The notes beneath the pieces were generated by a model. The model was not told the DNA's origin, searched no databases, and was given only the letters and a program-made list of their open reading frames with translations. The position numbers and the translations under genes were made by a program. A DNA stretch of 36,015 nt from Nitrososphaerota archaeon. GTDB lineage: Archaea; Thermoproteota; Nitrososphaeria; Nitrososphaerales; Nitrosopumilaceae. The DNA lies in the NCBI GenBank assembly GCA_029782475.1, contig JARPSM010000010.1, forward strand, positions 1-36,015. Reading direction: 5' to 3'. Below are positions 29,148 through 35,915 of this stretch, piece by piece. Position 1 is the first letter of the stretch; each line of letters opens with the position of its first letter.

Positions 29148-29809
29148 TTGGAATTAAAAATTTCAGATTATAATGATGCTGAGGGTATAATTAAAAATGA
29201 ATTCAGCGAAGAGTGGAAGGAATTTGAAAAAATATTACAAGAGATGCCTTTACATTTACAAGGATCAGACCAAAAAGGAAAAAAAGGCAGTGTAATTTTT
29301 GGTGTAAAAGAAACCAATAGATATCTAAAAGAACATCTAGTTAATGAGAATTGGGAAGTGATGTCTCAATTCCTGCAGAATACAATTCTTTTGGGATTGG
29401 TGTAGATTTTGGTAAAAAAAATATAATTGTAGAAGTGCAATTTTCAAACTATCCATTTGTAATTAATAATATTATCAGATCAGAAGTATTTTGTAAATCA
29501 GAATTAGAATTGATACCAGAATACCCTGTTAAACTATTGATTATAATTACGAAAGCCCATAAATTTCCTGCTTCAAATAGTACATCATACTATGAACAAG
29601 CTAAAGGTCAAATTGATTTTATGTTAGAACATGAAATTATTTCGATGTCCATACGATTGATTGGTTTAACTGTCAGTGATGGTGAGAATGTGGATGCAAT
29701 GTGGACAAACTATTCAGCAGAAAGATATTCTAGGAATGGAACAAACAGTTCGCAGACATTTAAAATAAAAACAATTAATGATGGAATTGCAAAAATTATA
29801 AAAAATTAA
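29148..29809 (+). pseudogene. BglII-family restriction endonuclease, interrupted by one frameshift
   Basis: Homolog of BglII (cuts A/GATCT). From TTG 29148 it reads MELKISDYNDAEGIIKNEFS, collinear with the BglII N-terminus as I recall it, to Trp69. The frame then shifts at the GGG of 29353-29355; the first frame stops at 29405 and the rest continues in the next frame to TAA 29809. Adding one G gives ENWGSDVSIPAEYN and a 220-residue protein, against 223 for BglII. The active site is conserved with exact spacing: D87 x8 E96 x Q98 (VDFGKKNIIVEVQ), matching D84, E93 and Q95. DNA-contact segments FSNYPF and FPASNSTSYYEQA are kept. BglII Asn69 corresponds to Asp72. As written the enzyme is dead unless the shift is a sequencing error or is bypassed. 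Confidence 0.85.
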
Positions 29810-30850: not shown

Positions 30851-31963
30851 TCATGTTGTCTCAATTTGATGAATTAGATATAGACTTGGTAATGGAACAA
30901 CTTTGAATGCTTTGGTATTTAGATGTGTATGTTTTGAAAAAGAATTAATTAATTCTAGACGCTTTGTTCGTTGCTCAATTACATTAAAATCTTGAAATTG
31001 TTTTAAAGATGTTAGATGATTAGCAAATTTATCAATACAGTCAGATTTAGAATAAATTCCATTTATCGTATCCAAAACATTTTTACAAAATAATCTAACT
31101 TTGAAAATATCTTCAATATACTGAGTAACATTATATCCACCAGTATCAAGATATTGACCTTTAAAATCACCATGTTTATTTTTTGAAGTAGATTCTAAAC
31201 TATTGATATTTTGAGGATTAACTAGCGATTCTGTATGTTTCGATATAGATTCAACCACTTCTTTAAATGAAAAACTTTCAGCATGTTTTGAGGATTTGTA
31301 TGTAGAAAAGCTTTCAAATTTTTCATATGGTCTATTAAGGGAATTTTCGATCCAACTATCAAAAAGGCGACCTAAGTCATAGATTTGTTTTGGAGTTCTT
31401 TCAGGAATTTTAATTGTATAGCCAATTGTTCCTATTGCAATCGTGTTTAATTTATCAGCAATTAAAGATCCTACATCAAAAATCTCAATATCTTCTTTAG
31501 TTTTAAAACCTAAAATGTCAATTCCTTTACCAAAAGTTTTTGATTCTAGTTCAGGAATGTTCTCACAAAAAATGTCTAAATTTACATGACCAACTGGACT
31601 GAAATTAGTCTTATGAGTTATATCAAATCTCATCATTGGAAGATTTCCTTCGAAATTTTTATTTTCTACAAATATTATATCATCAGAAGTTAGATTAATT
31701 TGTGAAATCTTCTTTCTTACATCATCAAATGACAAATTTACAAGTATGTCAATATCAACACTTAATCGTCTAATGTTTTGATCCAAATGAAATGGCATAC
31801 TCATTCCTCCTCTAACTTTACAATCCATTAGTTTATTGACATGATGTAAAATTTCAAAATCCATAATGAACTTTTCAATAAATCCTTTATTAGGAAAATG
31901 TTCTTGTTGACTAATCTTTATGATATTATCTTTGTCTAGTTCTTGTTCATATAATAGAGTCAA
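30851..31963 (-). CDS. AbiEii-like nucleotidyltransferase
   Basis: A 370-residue protein with the DUF1814/AbiEii nucleotidyltransferase pattern: VRGGMSM (Gly52-Gly53), RRLSVDIDIL with Ser68, Asp70 and Asp72, a third acid in VNLDIF (Asp130), then DVGSLIADKLNTIA (Lys171) and RTPKQIYDLGRL (Lys192, Asp196). Relatives are toxins of the AbiE and MenT families that modify tRNA or other RNA. The normal partner, an AbiEi winged-helix antitoxin, is absent. Instead the gene starts inside the last codons of the MORC-like ATPase gene (4-nt ATGA overlap), so the two proteins are made together. C-terminal 170 residues are helical and unassigned. Confidence 0.8.
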   Translation of the reverse strand: MTLLYEQELDKDNIIKISQQEHFPNKGFIEKFIMDFEILHHVNKLMDCKVRGGMSMPFHLDQNIRRLSVDIDILVNLSFDDVRKKISQINLTSDDIIFVENKNFEGNLPMMRFDITHKTNFSPVGHVNLDIFCENIPELESKTFGKGIDILGFKTKEDIEIFDVGSLIADKLNTIAIGTIGYTIKIPERTPKQIYDLGRLFDSWIENSLNRPYEKFESFSTYKSSKHAESFSFKEVVESISKHTESLVNPQNINSLESTSKNKHGDFKGQYLDTGGYNVTQYIEDIFKVRLFCKNVLDTINGIYSKSDCIDKFANHLTSLKQFQDFNVIEQRTKRLELINSFSKHTHLNTKAFKVVPLPSLYLIHQIETT

Positions 31964-33894
31964 AATTCACTTTCTCCAAAAACTTGATCTAATAATTTGG
32001 AAACATCATTAAAATTATTGCGATGTTTAGATAATGAAACTAATTTGCTTTTCTTTACTAGATTGTAATTTTTGAGTAAATCAAGAACAGTGACTAATTC
32101 TTCATCAGTGATAGGAATATGATTAGAGATTATTTCTCTATAAAAATCCATCCAAGCTTTTTCAGGTTCAGCAAGAGGTTTTGATAATTCATCAGATTTG
32201 TATTCTCTAATAATTAAAAATGGTTTATCAGTAGAAATTTTGTATGCATTTTCAATTTCTTCCCGTGTTGGATCAAATAATAAAGCAAATTTTCTAGAGT
32301 TTGAAAAAGTTTGAGAGATAAAATCTAATACTATTTCACCCACACCTTTTTGAACATAGATAGTATAGAGCATTGTTTTTAATCCATATTCTAGATAAGT
32401 GTTAAGTGTACTAAGTGCTGTGAATTGAAATCTATATTCAAATTTTTCATGAAGATAATCATAGAGTTCAGTAAGTTCATCAGATAATCCATAAAATGCA
32501 TTAGATTCAGCATCACGACGTTCACGCATTTGTTTTGGTTTTTTCTGTTCTTTAGATAAAAAATCGTTTATAAATTTATTCCATTCAATATTTCTTTTTC
32601 TTAAAAATTCATCTAGAGTTAATTTTTCAGTAAGTAATTTTGATTCGATTTGAATTAATGCAATCAAAAATAAAGGATTTTTTGAAATTTTGAATGTAGG
32701 GCTATTTTTATTTATAGAAATATTAATTTCATTATTAGATTTATCAATATCATATAGATTTTTTTTGTCAGATTCAACAAAATCAAGAAATACATTTTTA
32801 GAATTTTTAGTAAATTCAAATTCAGGTACGTTGTCTAAAATTTTTTTTGAAACTGCAGAACTTAGTTGAACTTTAAGAGGCAAAATTTTCTTTGGTTTAT
32901 GACCTTTCAAATACGAATAAACATCATCTACAGAAGAAGCATTTTTTGATGAATAAGACTGCTCACTAAGAATATCAGAGATTGTTTTGTTATTACGTAG
33001 TTTTTCATCAGTTTCTTTGTATAGTTCATTATCAGTAAGGAATTTTGTTTTATAGAAATTCACAGATATTGGATCAAAATTCAAATCACCAACAACTTTA
33101 GAAACTTCAGGATGACTTCTTAATCCAATTTTTGAATGTGTTTCAATAAGTCTGTTATTTTTAAATAGATTAAACCCATATTCGCCTTTTGAAGACCGTT
33201 TTGTTGCTAAACCAATCCAACCTGTAATTTGAGAATCATTGGATAAATTAATTTTAATATTTTTTTTCTTTTCTTCTAGCTCTATAGGTTTAGATTTACA
33301 TAGAAATTGATTGATTTTGATTTCAATAGGGTAATCATTAAGATAACTAGCATATCTTGTTCCATAATGTTTTTTATAATTTGTTGCTTGGTTTGGATAA
33401 AGTCTAACATTGATTTTTTTAATTTCAATTTTTGTTCCAAACCAATTATCAGTATTTTTTTCTTCAGTAACTTGAAAATTATGCCAATCTAAAGTATCAT
33501 CGTTTAACCATTCATCTTCATCATATTCAACAACATATTTTTTTAAAGAACCTTTTTTTGCTGTTGTTATTCTAAAGTTTTTTCCTAACATAGAACAAGC
33601 ACTTTTCATACCCATACCAAATTGACCTAATTTTTTTTTAGATCTTTTAGTTGCTCTTGCAATTGTTAATGCATTTTCAAGTTCATCTAAATCCATACCA
33701 CGACCATCATCATCTACAGTAATTTTCTTATCAACAAAATCAATAGTCACATTTACTAACAAAGGTTGAGAACCATTTCTTGCATCTATAGAATTATCAA
33801 TTAATTCAGCAATGGCAGCTTCAGTTCTATATCCTATCATTCCTAGTTTTTTAAGGAGTGTTTTATCAGGCGTGATATTTAAATCTCTAACCAT
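31960..33894 (-). CDS. MORC/MutL-like GHKL ATPase
   Basis: A 644-residue protein with a complete Bergerat ATP-binding fold at the N-terminus: N box AELIDNSIDA (Glu30, Asn34), G1 box DDDGRGMD (61-68), G2 box GQFGMGMKSA (90-99). A transducer-like S5 domain follows to about 320 (FKNNRLIETH, then VSKVVGDLNFDPISVNFYKT). The remaining about 320 residues are helical/mixed and not recognised. This is the prokaryotic MORC-like group known to accompany restriction-modification genes. The start at ATG 33894 is chosen because a TATA box at 33924-33931 puts the transcript start near 33900; an in-frame ATG at 33915 would lie upstream of it. First gene of the leftward run ATPase-nucleotidyltransferase-methyltransferase. 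Confidence 0.85.
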   Translation of the reverse strand: MVRDLNITPDKTLLKKLGMIGYRTEAAIAELIDNSIDARNGSQPLLVNVTIDFVDKKITVDDDGRGMDLDELENALTIARATKRSKKKLGQFGMGMKSACSMLGKNFRITTAKKGSLKKYVVEYDEDEWLNDDTLDWHNFQVTEEKNTDNWFGTKIEIKKINVRLYPNQATNYKKHYGTRYASYLNDYPIEIKINQFLCKSKPIELEEKKKNIKINLSNDSQITGWIGLATKRSSKGEYGFNLFKNNRLIETHSKIGLRSHPEVSKVVGDLNFDPISVNFYKTKFLTDNELYKETDEKLRNNKTISDILSEQSYSSKNASSVDDVYSYLKGHKPKKILPLKVQLSSAVSKKILDNVPEFEFTKNSKNVFLDFVESDKKNLYDIDKSNNEINISINKNSPTFKISKNPLFLIALIQIESKLLTEKLTLDEFLRKRNIEWNKFINDFLSKEQKKPKQMRERRDAESNAFYGLSDELTELYDYLHEKFEYRFQFTALSTLNTYLEYGLKTMLYTIYVQKGVGEIVLDFISQTFSNSRKFALLFDPTREEIENAYKISTDKPFLIIREYKSDELSKPLAEPEKAWMDFYREIISNHIPITDEELVTVLDLLKNYNLVKKSKLVSLSKHRNNFNDVSKLLDQVFGESEF

Positions 33895-34893: not shown

Positions 34894-35915
34894 ATGACAA
34901 CAGTAACTTCCAAAGATCTAAAGAAAGCATACAAGAAGGAAAAGGATCTCCAAGTACGTGCCAGAATACTTGCCGTAAACATGATTTGTATGAACAATGC
35001 AAGCATTAAGTATACTGCCGATACACTCTTGCAGTGCCCCAACTGGGTCACCATATGGGTGCAACGATTCAAAGAGGGCGGCATAGACGCCCTCGTGGAT
35101 CTTCCCAGGTCAGGCAGACCGCCAAAGATAGACCTCGAAAAGATTGCAAAGATTGTATCGGATGCAGACGGCATCATCACTCCGAAGAAACTCAAGTGTA
35201 TAATACAAAAAAAATTCAGAGTAAACTACCACATTACAAACATCAGAAGGATATTGCACAAGCTTGACATGTCTGCCAAGACTGTCAAACGCATCCACAT
35301 CAATAGGGCAGAGATAAAACAGATCAAAAGATGGCAACACAACGCAAAAAGGCGGATTTCACGCCTAGAATCTAATGAATTTGCAGTTGTCGTCTTTGAT
35401 GAGGCAATATTCATAGATGATCCTGCAAGCGGAGTAAAGTACCAGTCAAAAAAGGGAGAGCCAATTGTTCGTCCATACAAGGGACGGCACGGCAAGGTGG
35501 TGGTGGTGGTGGTGGCATACGGCTCCATTGCAACAGACGACAGACAGTTCTTTAGGACGTATGACAGGTTTGACAAGGAGACGGTTCTGCAATACATCAA
35601 GGAGCTAGTCCGGCATTTCAAGAAAGTTGCAATAATTATGGATAACGCGCCGCAACACAAGGCATGCATTCTCCAAGAATTTCTGGATGGAAATCCAAAT
35701 GTAAAGGTCATATGGATGCCCACTGCAACACCTGAGGTCAGTGTGACAGAGGAGGAGTATTGGCACCAAGCAAAGCGCGATGTCCTAGTGTCTGAATACA
35801 TGCCACAGTTGGGGAGATGCGCCATGTACCACCATAATATTTCAGGACGGCGCGTCCGGATCTTAACGTGATGACGTTTATCAGTAGAAGCCCGCTTACA
35901 CTCAAGAACTTTTGA
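34894..35915 (+). pseudogene. IS630-family transposase, frameshifted near the C-terminus
   Basis: Starts at ATG 34894 (MTTVTSKDLKKAYKKEKDLQ). N-terminal HTH region to about 130 (including LPRSGRPPKID), then the DDE core: first Asp in VVVFDEAIF (about 170), second in IIMDNAPQH (about 249), third acid in PEVSVTEEEYWHQAKRD (about 290). In the original frame it ends at 35871 with the odd tail LGRCAMYHHNISGRRVRILT. One base earlier in the run GGGG (35811-35814) the other frame continues GEMRHVPP, a TAA at 35835-35837, then YFRTARPDLNVMTFISRSPL and TLKNF to 35915 inside the right terminal repeat. That second tail is the family-like one. So it carries a 1-base shift and a stop, and is probably inactive. 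Confidence 0.85.

Follow-up and report, generated by a model that had tools for sequence, protein, structure and literature searches.

AbiE systems, as described in Streptococcus agalactiae and Lactococcus, pair an AbiEi antitoxin with an AbiEii nucleotidyltransferase toxin, and in the papers cited here they are regulated by promoter autoregulation, for which the winged helix of the antitoxin is needed. In S. agalactiae, the C-terminal domain of AbiEi alone suffices for antitoxicity, AbiEii requires G49, G50, D67, and D69 to bind GTP, and the two proteins do not co-purify, though they form a working antitoxin–toxin pair (PMC3985639). The published AbiEi C-terminal domain comprises a single helix, four strands, and a bundle of six helices (PMC7319586). 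In the related MenAT3 system of Mycobacterium tuberculosis, the presence of the antitoxin leads to phosphorylation of MenT3 at S78 (PMC11375011). MORC ATPases, in turn, carry a MORC-specific S5 motif, GhXhhpXXRhl (Iyer et al. 2008, PMC2292703).

Here we describe a two-gene unit of marine ammonia-oxidising archaea in which an upstream gene for a MORC ATPase with an AbiEi-type C-terminal domain is followed by a gene for an AbiEii-type nucleotidyltransferase. The unit lies on the minus strand of the window (the whole analysed stretch of 36,015 nucleotides, from contig JARPSM010000010.1 of a Nitrosopumilaceae genome), to which the following coordinates refer:

30851..31963, minus strand: AbiEii/MenT-type nucleotidyltransferase (predicted toxin), 370 aa, TTG start (PF08843, PADLOC AbiEii, AlphaFold, motifs)
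31960..33894, minus strand: MORC ATPase-AbiEi fusion protein (predicted antitoxin), 644 aa, ATG start
32965..33894, minus strand: GHKL-S5 (MORC) ATPase module, about aa 1-310 (HATPase_c_3, Morc6_S5, motifs)
32533..32937, minus strand: middle domain, alpha/beta by secondary structure in the model, about aa 320-454 (assigned to no family)
31963..32502, minus strand: AbiEi-type antitoxin C-terminal domain, about aa 465-644 (PADLOC AbiEi, DUF6577 below cut-off, hhalign)
31960..31963, minus strand: 4-base overlap TTGA (ATPase stop TGA plus toxin start TTG)

The first-pass annotation had noted a four-base overlap, though it gave the letters as ATGA rather than TTGA. A nearby ATG (tatATGaac) is out of frame with the toxin, and the next in-frame ATG lies more than 30 codons downstream. 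We place the ATPase start at the ATG at 33894 because close homologues begin with methionine and reach (V/N)(D/N)(I/V/A)TPDK/R within a few residues. Homologous pairs have comparable overlaps or gaps near zero between the two genes.

The downstream gene had been recognised at the outset as an AbiEii-like nucleotidyltransferase, and profile searches bear this out (PF08843, 33.8 bits against a cut-off of 22.5; PADLOC AbiEii, E 3e-17). Together with a MenT3-like fold, it has the catalytic motifs of the AbiEii (DUF1814) nucleotidyltransferases, namely GG52-53, S68-x-D70-x-D72, K171, and D196; in an alignment of ten relatives, G52, G53, S68, D70, D72, and K171 are invariant and D196 is nearly so. 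The spacing of G52-G53-D70-D72 equals that of G49-G50-D67-D69 in S. agalactiae AbiEii, and S68 occupies the SxDxD position, as does S78 of MenT3. The AlphaFold model (pLDDT 88) has MenT3 as its best PDB match, and only MenT3/TglT, an H. pylori nucleotidyltransferase, MenT4, and MenT1 match it with E < 0.001. A PDB sequence search with the toxin gave no match, and viral contigs searched with the toxin alignment gave no relatives. PDC-M05, considered as an archaeal nucleotidyltransferase system, was dropped, being a HEPN pair.

The upstream gene does encode the MORC-like GHKL ATPase that had been proposed, with matches to HATPase_c_3 (E 2e-24) and Morc6_S5 (E 2e-6) that span the N-terminal half of the protein. 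The ATPase motifs are an N-box (ELIDNSIDA), G1 (DDGRGMD), G2 (LGQFGMGMKSA), and the S5 lysine K282; across 14 copies the N-box, G2, and the lysine are conserved, with G1 almost as constant. The protein combines the GHKL motifs with an S5 domain bearing a conserved basic residue, as members of the MORC family do, and the MORC S5 motif is found as GFNLFKNNRLI at aa 240-250. In a Foldseek search with the whole ATPase model, in which the ATPase part dominates the matches, MORC3 and MORC4 stand near the top of the list beside Hsp90 and SMCHD1, and a PDB sequence search with the ATPase found MORC and Hsp83. Motifs, domain matches, and fold identify the protein as a MORC, presumably an active one. 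In eukaryotes, MORC modules dimerise in an ATP-dependent manner and clamp DNA, and members of the family silence transposons. Beyond the ATPase module, the middle domain (aa 320-454) is alpha/beta in the model and has a mean identity of 27% among copies. Viral contigs yielded no relatives when searched with the single ATPase and only distant GHKL relatives when searched with the ATPase alignment; on plasmids, tblastn matched only the N-terminal half of the ATPase among the matches listed. Separately, a clostridial MORC-like GHKL protein (L032:5986-7239) has a C-terminus that by eye resembles the swivelling domain of PEP-utilising enzymes. MzaB of the MZA system gives a weak GHKL match (PADLOC E 1e-10) confined to aa 21-132 of the ORF. 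MZA was rejected as an assignment, the MzaB match covering about 110-127 residues and scoring 52.7 against an NCBIfam cut-off of 850 bits.

The first-pass annotation described the nucleotidyltransferase as lacking an AbiEi antitoxin. There is indeed no separate AbiEi gene, yet an AbiEi antitoxin domain forms the C-terminus of the ATPase protein. The C-terminal ∼175 residues are homologous to the AbiEi antitoxin domain by profile–profile comparison (E 5e-20). When eight aligned winged-helix AbiEi proteins were compared with the ATPase family alignment in hhalign, the only match paired ATPase columns 469-635 with AbiEi columns 76-245 (probability 99.3, E 5e-20), so the homology begins just behind the winged helix. 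For the last 190 aa of the ATPase protein, AbiEi is the sole PADLOC family matched (E 7e-4). On six homologous fragments, PADLOC AbiEi matched four with E values of 1e-5 to 6e-5 and L022 with 3e-3; the C-terminal fragment of L017 matched no family in PADLOC or Pfam. Similarly, Pfam DUF6577 was matched by five fragments at 6e-6 to 8e-5, just under its cut-off. As in AbiE, the upstream gene carries an AbiEi antitoxicity domain, by both hhalign and PADLOC. The N-terminal winged helix of AbiEi is absent, however: no HTH family matched the ATPase protein, and the GHKL-S5 ATPase stands in its place. We therefore class the pair as a variant of AbiE and not as a plain member.

The C-terminal domain is only 16-22% identical to winged-helix AbiEi proteins. 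A PDB search with its profile reached no AbiEi, and plasmid tblastn with the domain found nothing. In the model, aa 472-639 are predicted to form one helix, four strands, and additional helices, an arrangement that resembles the one described for the AbiEi C-terminal domain (PMC7319586). Because the AbiEi C-terminal domain alone is antitoxic in Streptococcus, the MORC-AbiEi ATPase protein is, by analogy, most likely the antitoxin. The earlier suggestion that the ATPase replaces the antitoxin as controller is thus supported at its core, and more directly than the sequence alone could show: the ATPase protein carries the antitoxin domain, and only the winged-helix DNA-binding domain has been replaced.

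In other Thermoproteota, the homologous domain occurs on ordinary winged-helix AbiEi proteins, mostly beside nucleotidyltransferases of the same family. For example, in one genome (G171, locus L113) a toxin of this family is preceded not by a MORC ATPase but by a 261-aa protein, which passes the cut-offs of AbiEi_4 (winged helix) and DUF6577 and matches the fused domain with E 2e-15 and probability 98.5. An HMM of the fused domain, searched against 398 genomes of the phylum, gave twelve matches outside the window's genome, eleven of them AbiEi-like (L130 being incomplete); L127 is a weak match to an unrelated protein. Nine of the matches adjoin a toxin-family gene (L119 and L120 are identical copies), and the short flanks of L124 and L130 hold none. 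A second search showed a toxin-like neighbour at L208 and detected none at L207. All seven winged-helix proteins checked (L113, L118, L119, L123, L125, L126, and L129) pass the DUF6577 cut-off and adjoin AbiEii-type genes, and several also pass AbiEi_4. Pfam PF20217 (DUF6577) thus seems to represent the antitoxin domain at the C-terminus of one group of AbiEi proteins. The window's own genome also contains a canonical winged-helix AbiEi/AbiEii pair (G000:C96, L019:6399-7947; PADLOC AbiEi E 3e-40, AbiEii E 1e-69). In one archaeal genome, four near-identical genes of 294 aa stand in tandem, with AbiEii-like genes behind some of them (L115:2882-9781).

The MORC-AbiEi ATPase is patchily distributed, occurring in 18 of 250 Nitrosopumilaceae genomes and 6 of 22 genera. 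In 15 copies the toxin gene lies directly behind it, overlapping or a few bases away, and this recurrence within the family led us to reject chance adjacency. Among the copies without a full pair, two end at a contig edge and one is a truncated ATPase (L160); a remnant of the toxin start remains behind the ATPase at L151, and the toxin is absent at L155 and L161. Just one close toxin was seen standing alone (L112), and stops interrupt its reading frame. The window's genome holds a second MORC-AbiEi/AbiEii pair (G000:C28, L014:113-2649), which lies close to the end of its contig and has a toxin shortened to 206 aa. A Cenarchaeum-type genome carries two MORC-AbiEi genes ∼20 kb apart (L161 and L111, G158:C1:1236617-1258926), one of which lacks a toxin and lies beside the candidate defence gene PDC-S46. 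Among the matches listed, MORC relatives of other lineages (L028-L100) lack the AbiEi domain; likewise, a contig scan, among the matches listed, and samples of the class and of the phylum showed no ATPase-AbiEi fusion outside Nitrosopumilaceae.

Mean identity among copies is 49% for the GHKL module, 33% for the C-terminal domain, and 27% for the toxin, the latter two diverging faster than the ATPase. Distances of the C-terminal domain and the toxin correlate (r 0.80; partial 0.54 given GHKL), as would be expected for a co-evolving pair, with shared descent contributing in part. In the toxin tree, one branch (support 99/98) separates ATPase-linked from winged-helix-linked toxins. This split by partner type fits a single exchange of the N-terminal part of the antitoxin; the tree is unrooted with long branches and does not give the direction of exchange.

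We interpret the pair as a variant AbiE (type IV-like) system, a toxin and a MORC-fused antitoxin whose ATPase sets the hold on the toxin, and give this reading a probability of roughly two in three. Judging from its family, the AbiEii/MenT nucleotidyltransferase probably adds a nucleotide to RNA, be it tRNA or another kind, and arrests growth. The C-terminal AbiEi domain would neutralise it, as its Streptococcus counterpart suggests, perhaps by promoting phosphorylation of S68 in the way that MenA3 does for MenT3. At rest, the AbiEi domain would keep the toxin neutralised. By analogy with eukaryotic MORC modules, which dimerise on ATP and clamp DNA, the ATPase most likely decides whether the attached AbiEi domain holds the toxin inactive. 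Engagement of the clamp with foreign or disturbed DNA, or loss of the antitoxin, may then free the toxin. Gating of the antitoxin by ATP or DNA is what we infer by this analogy, and invasion is the presumed trigger. The loci at which the antitoxin-ATPase is kept and the toxin lost or decayed (L151, L155, L161), together with the broken lone toxin (L112), fit a toxin–antitoxin relationship. Failed co-purification alone would not refute the pair, since AbiEi and AbiEii of Streptococcus do not co-purify either. With the winged helix, the domain required for AbiEi autoregulation is gone, and the MORC module may offer a different DNA contact in its place. Tentatively, and at somewhat short of even odds, the MORC clamp could be the sensor of an abortive-infection switch that traps invader or damaged DNA, alters the AbiEi domain, and frees the RNA-modifying nucleotidyltransferase.

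It is possible, though unlikely, that the pair is instead a plain AbiE system with a passive ATPase, in which the AbiEi domain neutralises the toxin at all times and the MORC part provides stability, DNA tethering, or autoregulation without ATP-gated release. The AbiEi C-terminal domain of Streptococcus works alone (PMC3985639), type IV antitoxins need not bind their toxins, and the winged helix and MORC are both DNA-contacting modules. However, diverged copies retain all the ATPase motifs together with the S5 lysine, though a passive tether could do without them, and the ATPase is the best conserved part of the pair (49% mean identity).

Also encoded in the window are a Dam-type methylase, a type II restriction enzyme disrupted by a frameshift, and an N6/N4 methylase, and a methylase gene lies 64 bases downstream of the pair on the same strand. 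The restriction enzyme gene (29148-29809, plus strand; PADLOC PDLC03428) lies between the Dam-type and N6/N4 methylases. Its single frameshift, around 29350-29400, leaves two overlapping ORFs and reflects a broken gene or an assembly error. A transposase-like gene with HTH and DDE_3 domains (34894-35871, plus strand) lies ∼1 kb upstream of the ATPase gene. Homologues of the window's methylases were not found near the pair at other loci. One homologue adjoins the PDC-S46 candidate defence gene (E 2e-201) and another is near a CapP-like gene; a defence role is plausible.

Such surroundings, like the usual teaming of prokaryotic MORCs with DNA-acting enzymes (PMC2292703), would also suit a MORC defence effector. 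In that reading the AbiEi-like domain would dock or activate the nucleotidyltransferase at DNA-bound clamps, and the enzyme, instead of being a self-toxin, would act on the nucleic acid of the invader. We consider this improbable: domain and enzyme come from an antitoxin and a toxin family, respectively, known members of the latter cause growth arrest and either modify tRNA or bind GTP, and loss of the toxin with retention of the ATPase gene fits a toxin–antitoxin system better. Least credible by far is that the pair belongs to the adjacent restriction-modification cluster, the usual setting of prokaryotic MORCs. A methylase does lie just downstream on the same strand, with the Dam-type methylase and restriction enzyme nearby, but homologues of these methylases were not found near the pair at other loci, where the nucleotidyltransferase was. 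A MORC restriction-modification operon, with SFII helicase, methylase, or nuclease neighbours, was rejected on the same comparison of the window's methylases, the conserved partner being the nucleotidyltransferase.

If the MORC clamp is such an abortive-infection sensor, the pair would be a two-gene immune system coupling surveillance of DNA to an AbiE toxin, and the first toxin–antitoxin under MORC control. The fusion bears on how AbiE systems sense infection: where the winged helix would stand there is an ATP-driven module of a kind known to clamp DNA, and antitoxin gating becomes testable by point mutations in a single protein. Moreover, MORC ATPases gain a defined toxin partner in archaea, and a function is suggested for Pfam DUF6577. 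Our literature search, which left preprints and most subscription journals outside, found no publication joining AbiE with a GHKL/MORC protein and none naming DUF6577, and the words GHKL and MORC are absent from a 2026 survey of archaeal defence. AbiE itself is known; we found no earlier description of a variant with a MORC-fused antitoxin.

Among described systems, the prokaryotic MORC ATPases of restriction-modification operons share the GHKL-S5 ATPase with its GhXhhpXXRhl signature; in the part of PMC2292703 drawn on here they occur with SFII helicases, methylases, and nucleases, and no AbiEi domain or nucleotidyltransferase partner is described. The toxin's best structural matches include MenT3 and MenT4 of the MenAT3 and MenAT4 systems of M. 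tuberculosis, with which it shares the SxDxD serine, but MenA3 and MenA4 are AbiEi-type antitoxins without an ATPase. The AbiE systems of S. agalactiae and Lactococcus have the same two-gene operon with the antitoxin first, and their antitoxin C-terminal domain is homologous by profile. Here, however, a MORC ATPase replaces the winged helix, the protein has 644 aa against about 200, and the domain for the usual promoter autoregulation is absent. The archaeal pairs of winged-helix AbiEi (DUF6577) and AbiEii (L113, L118, L119) likewise place a toxin of the same family next to a homologous antitoxin domain, and carry a winged helix where the fusion protein has its ATPase.
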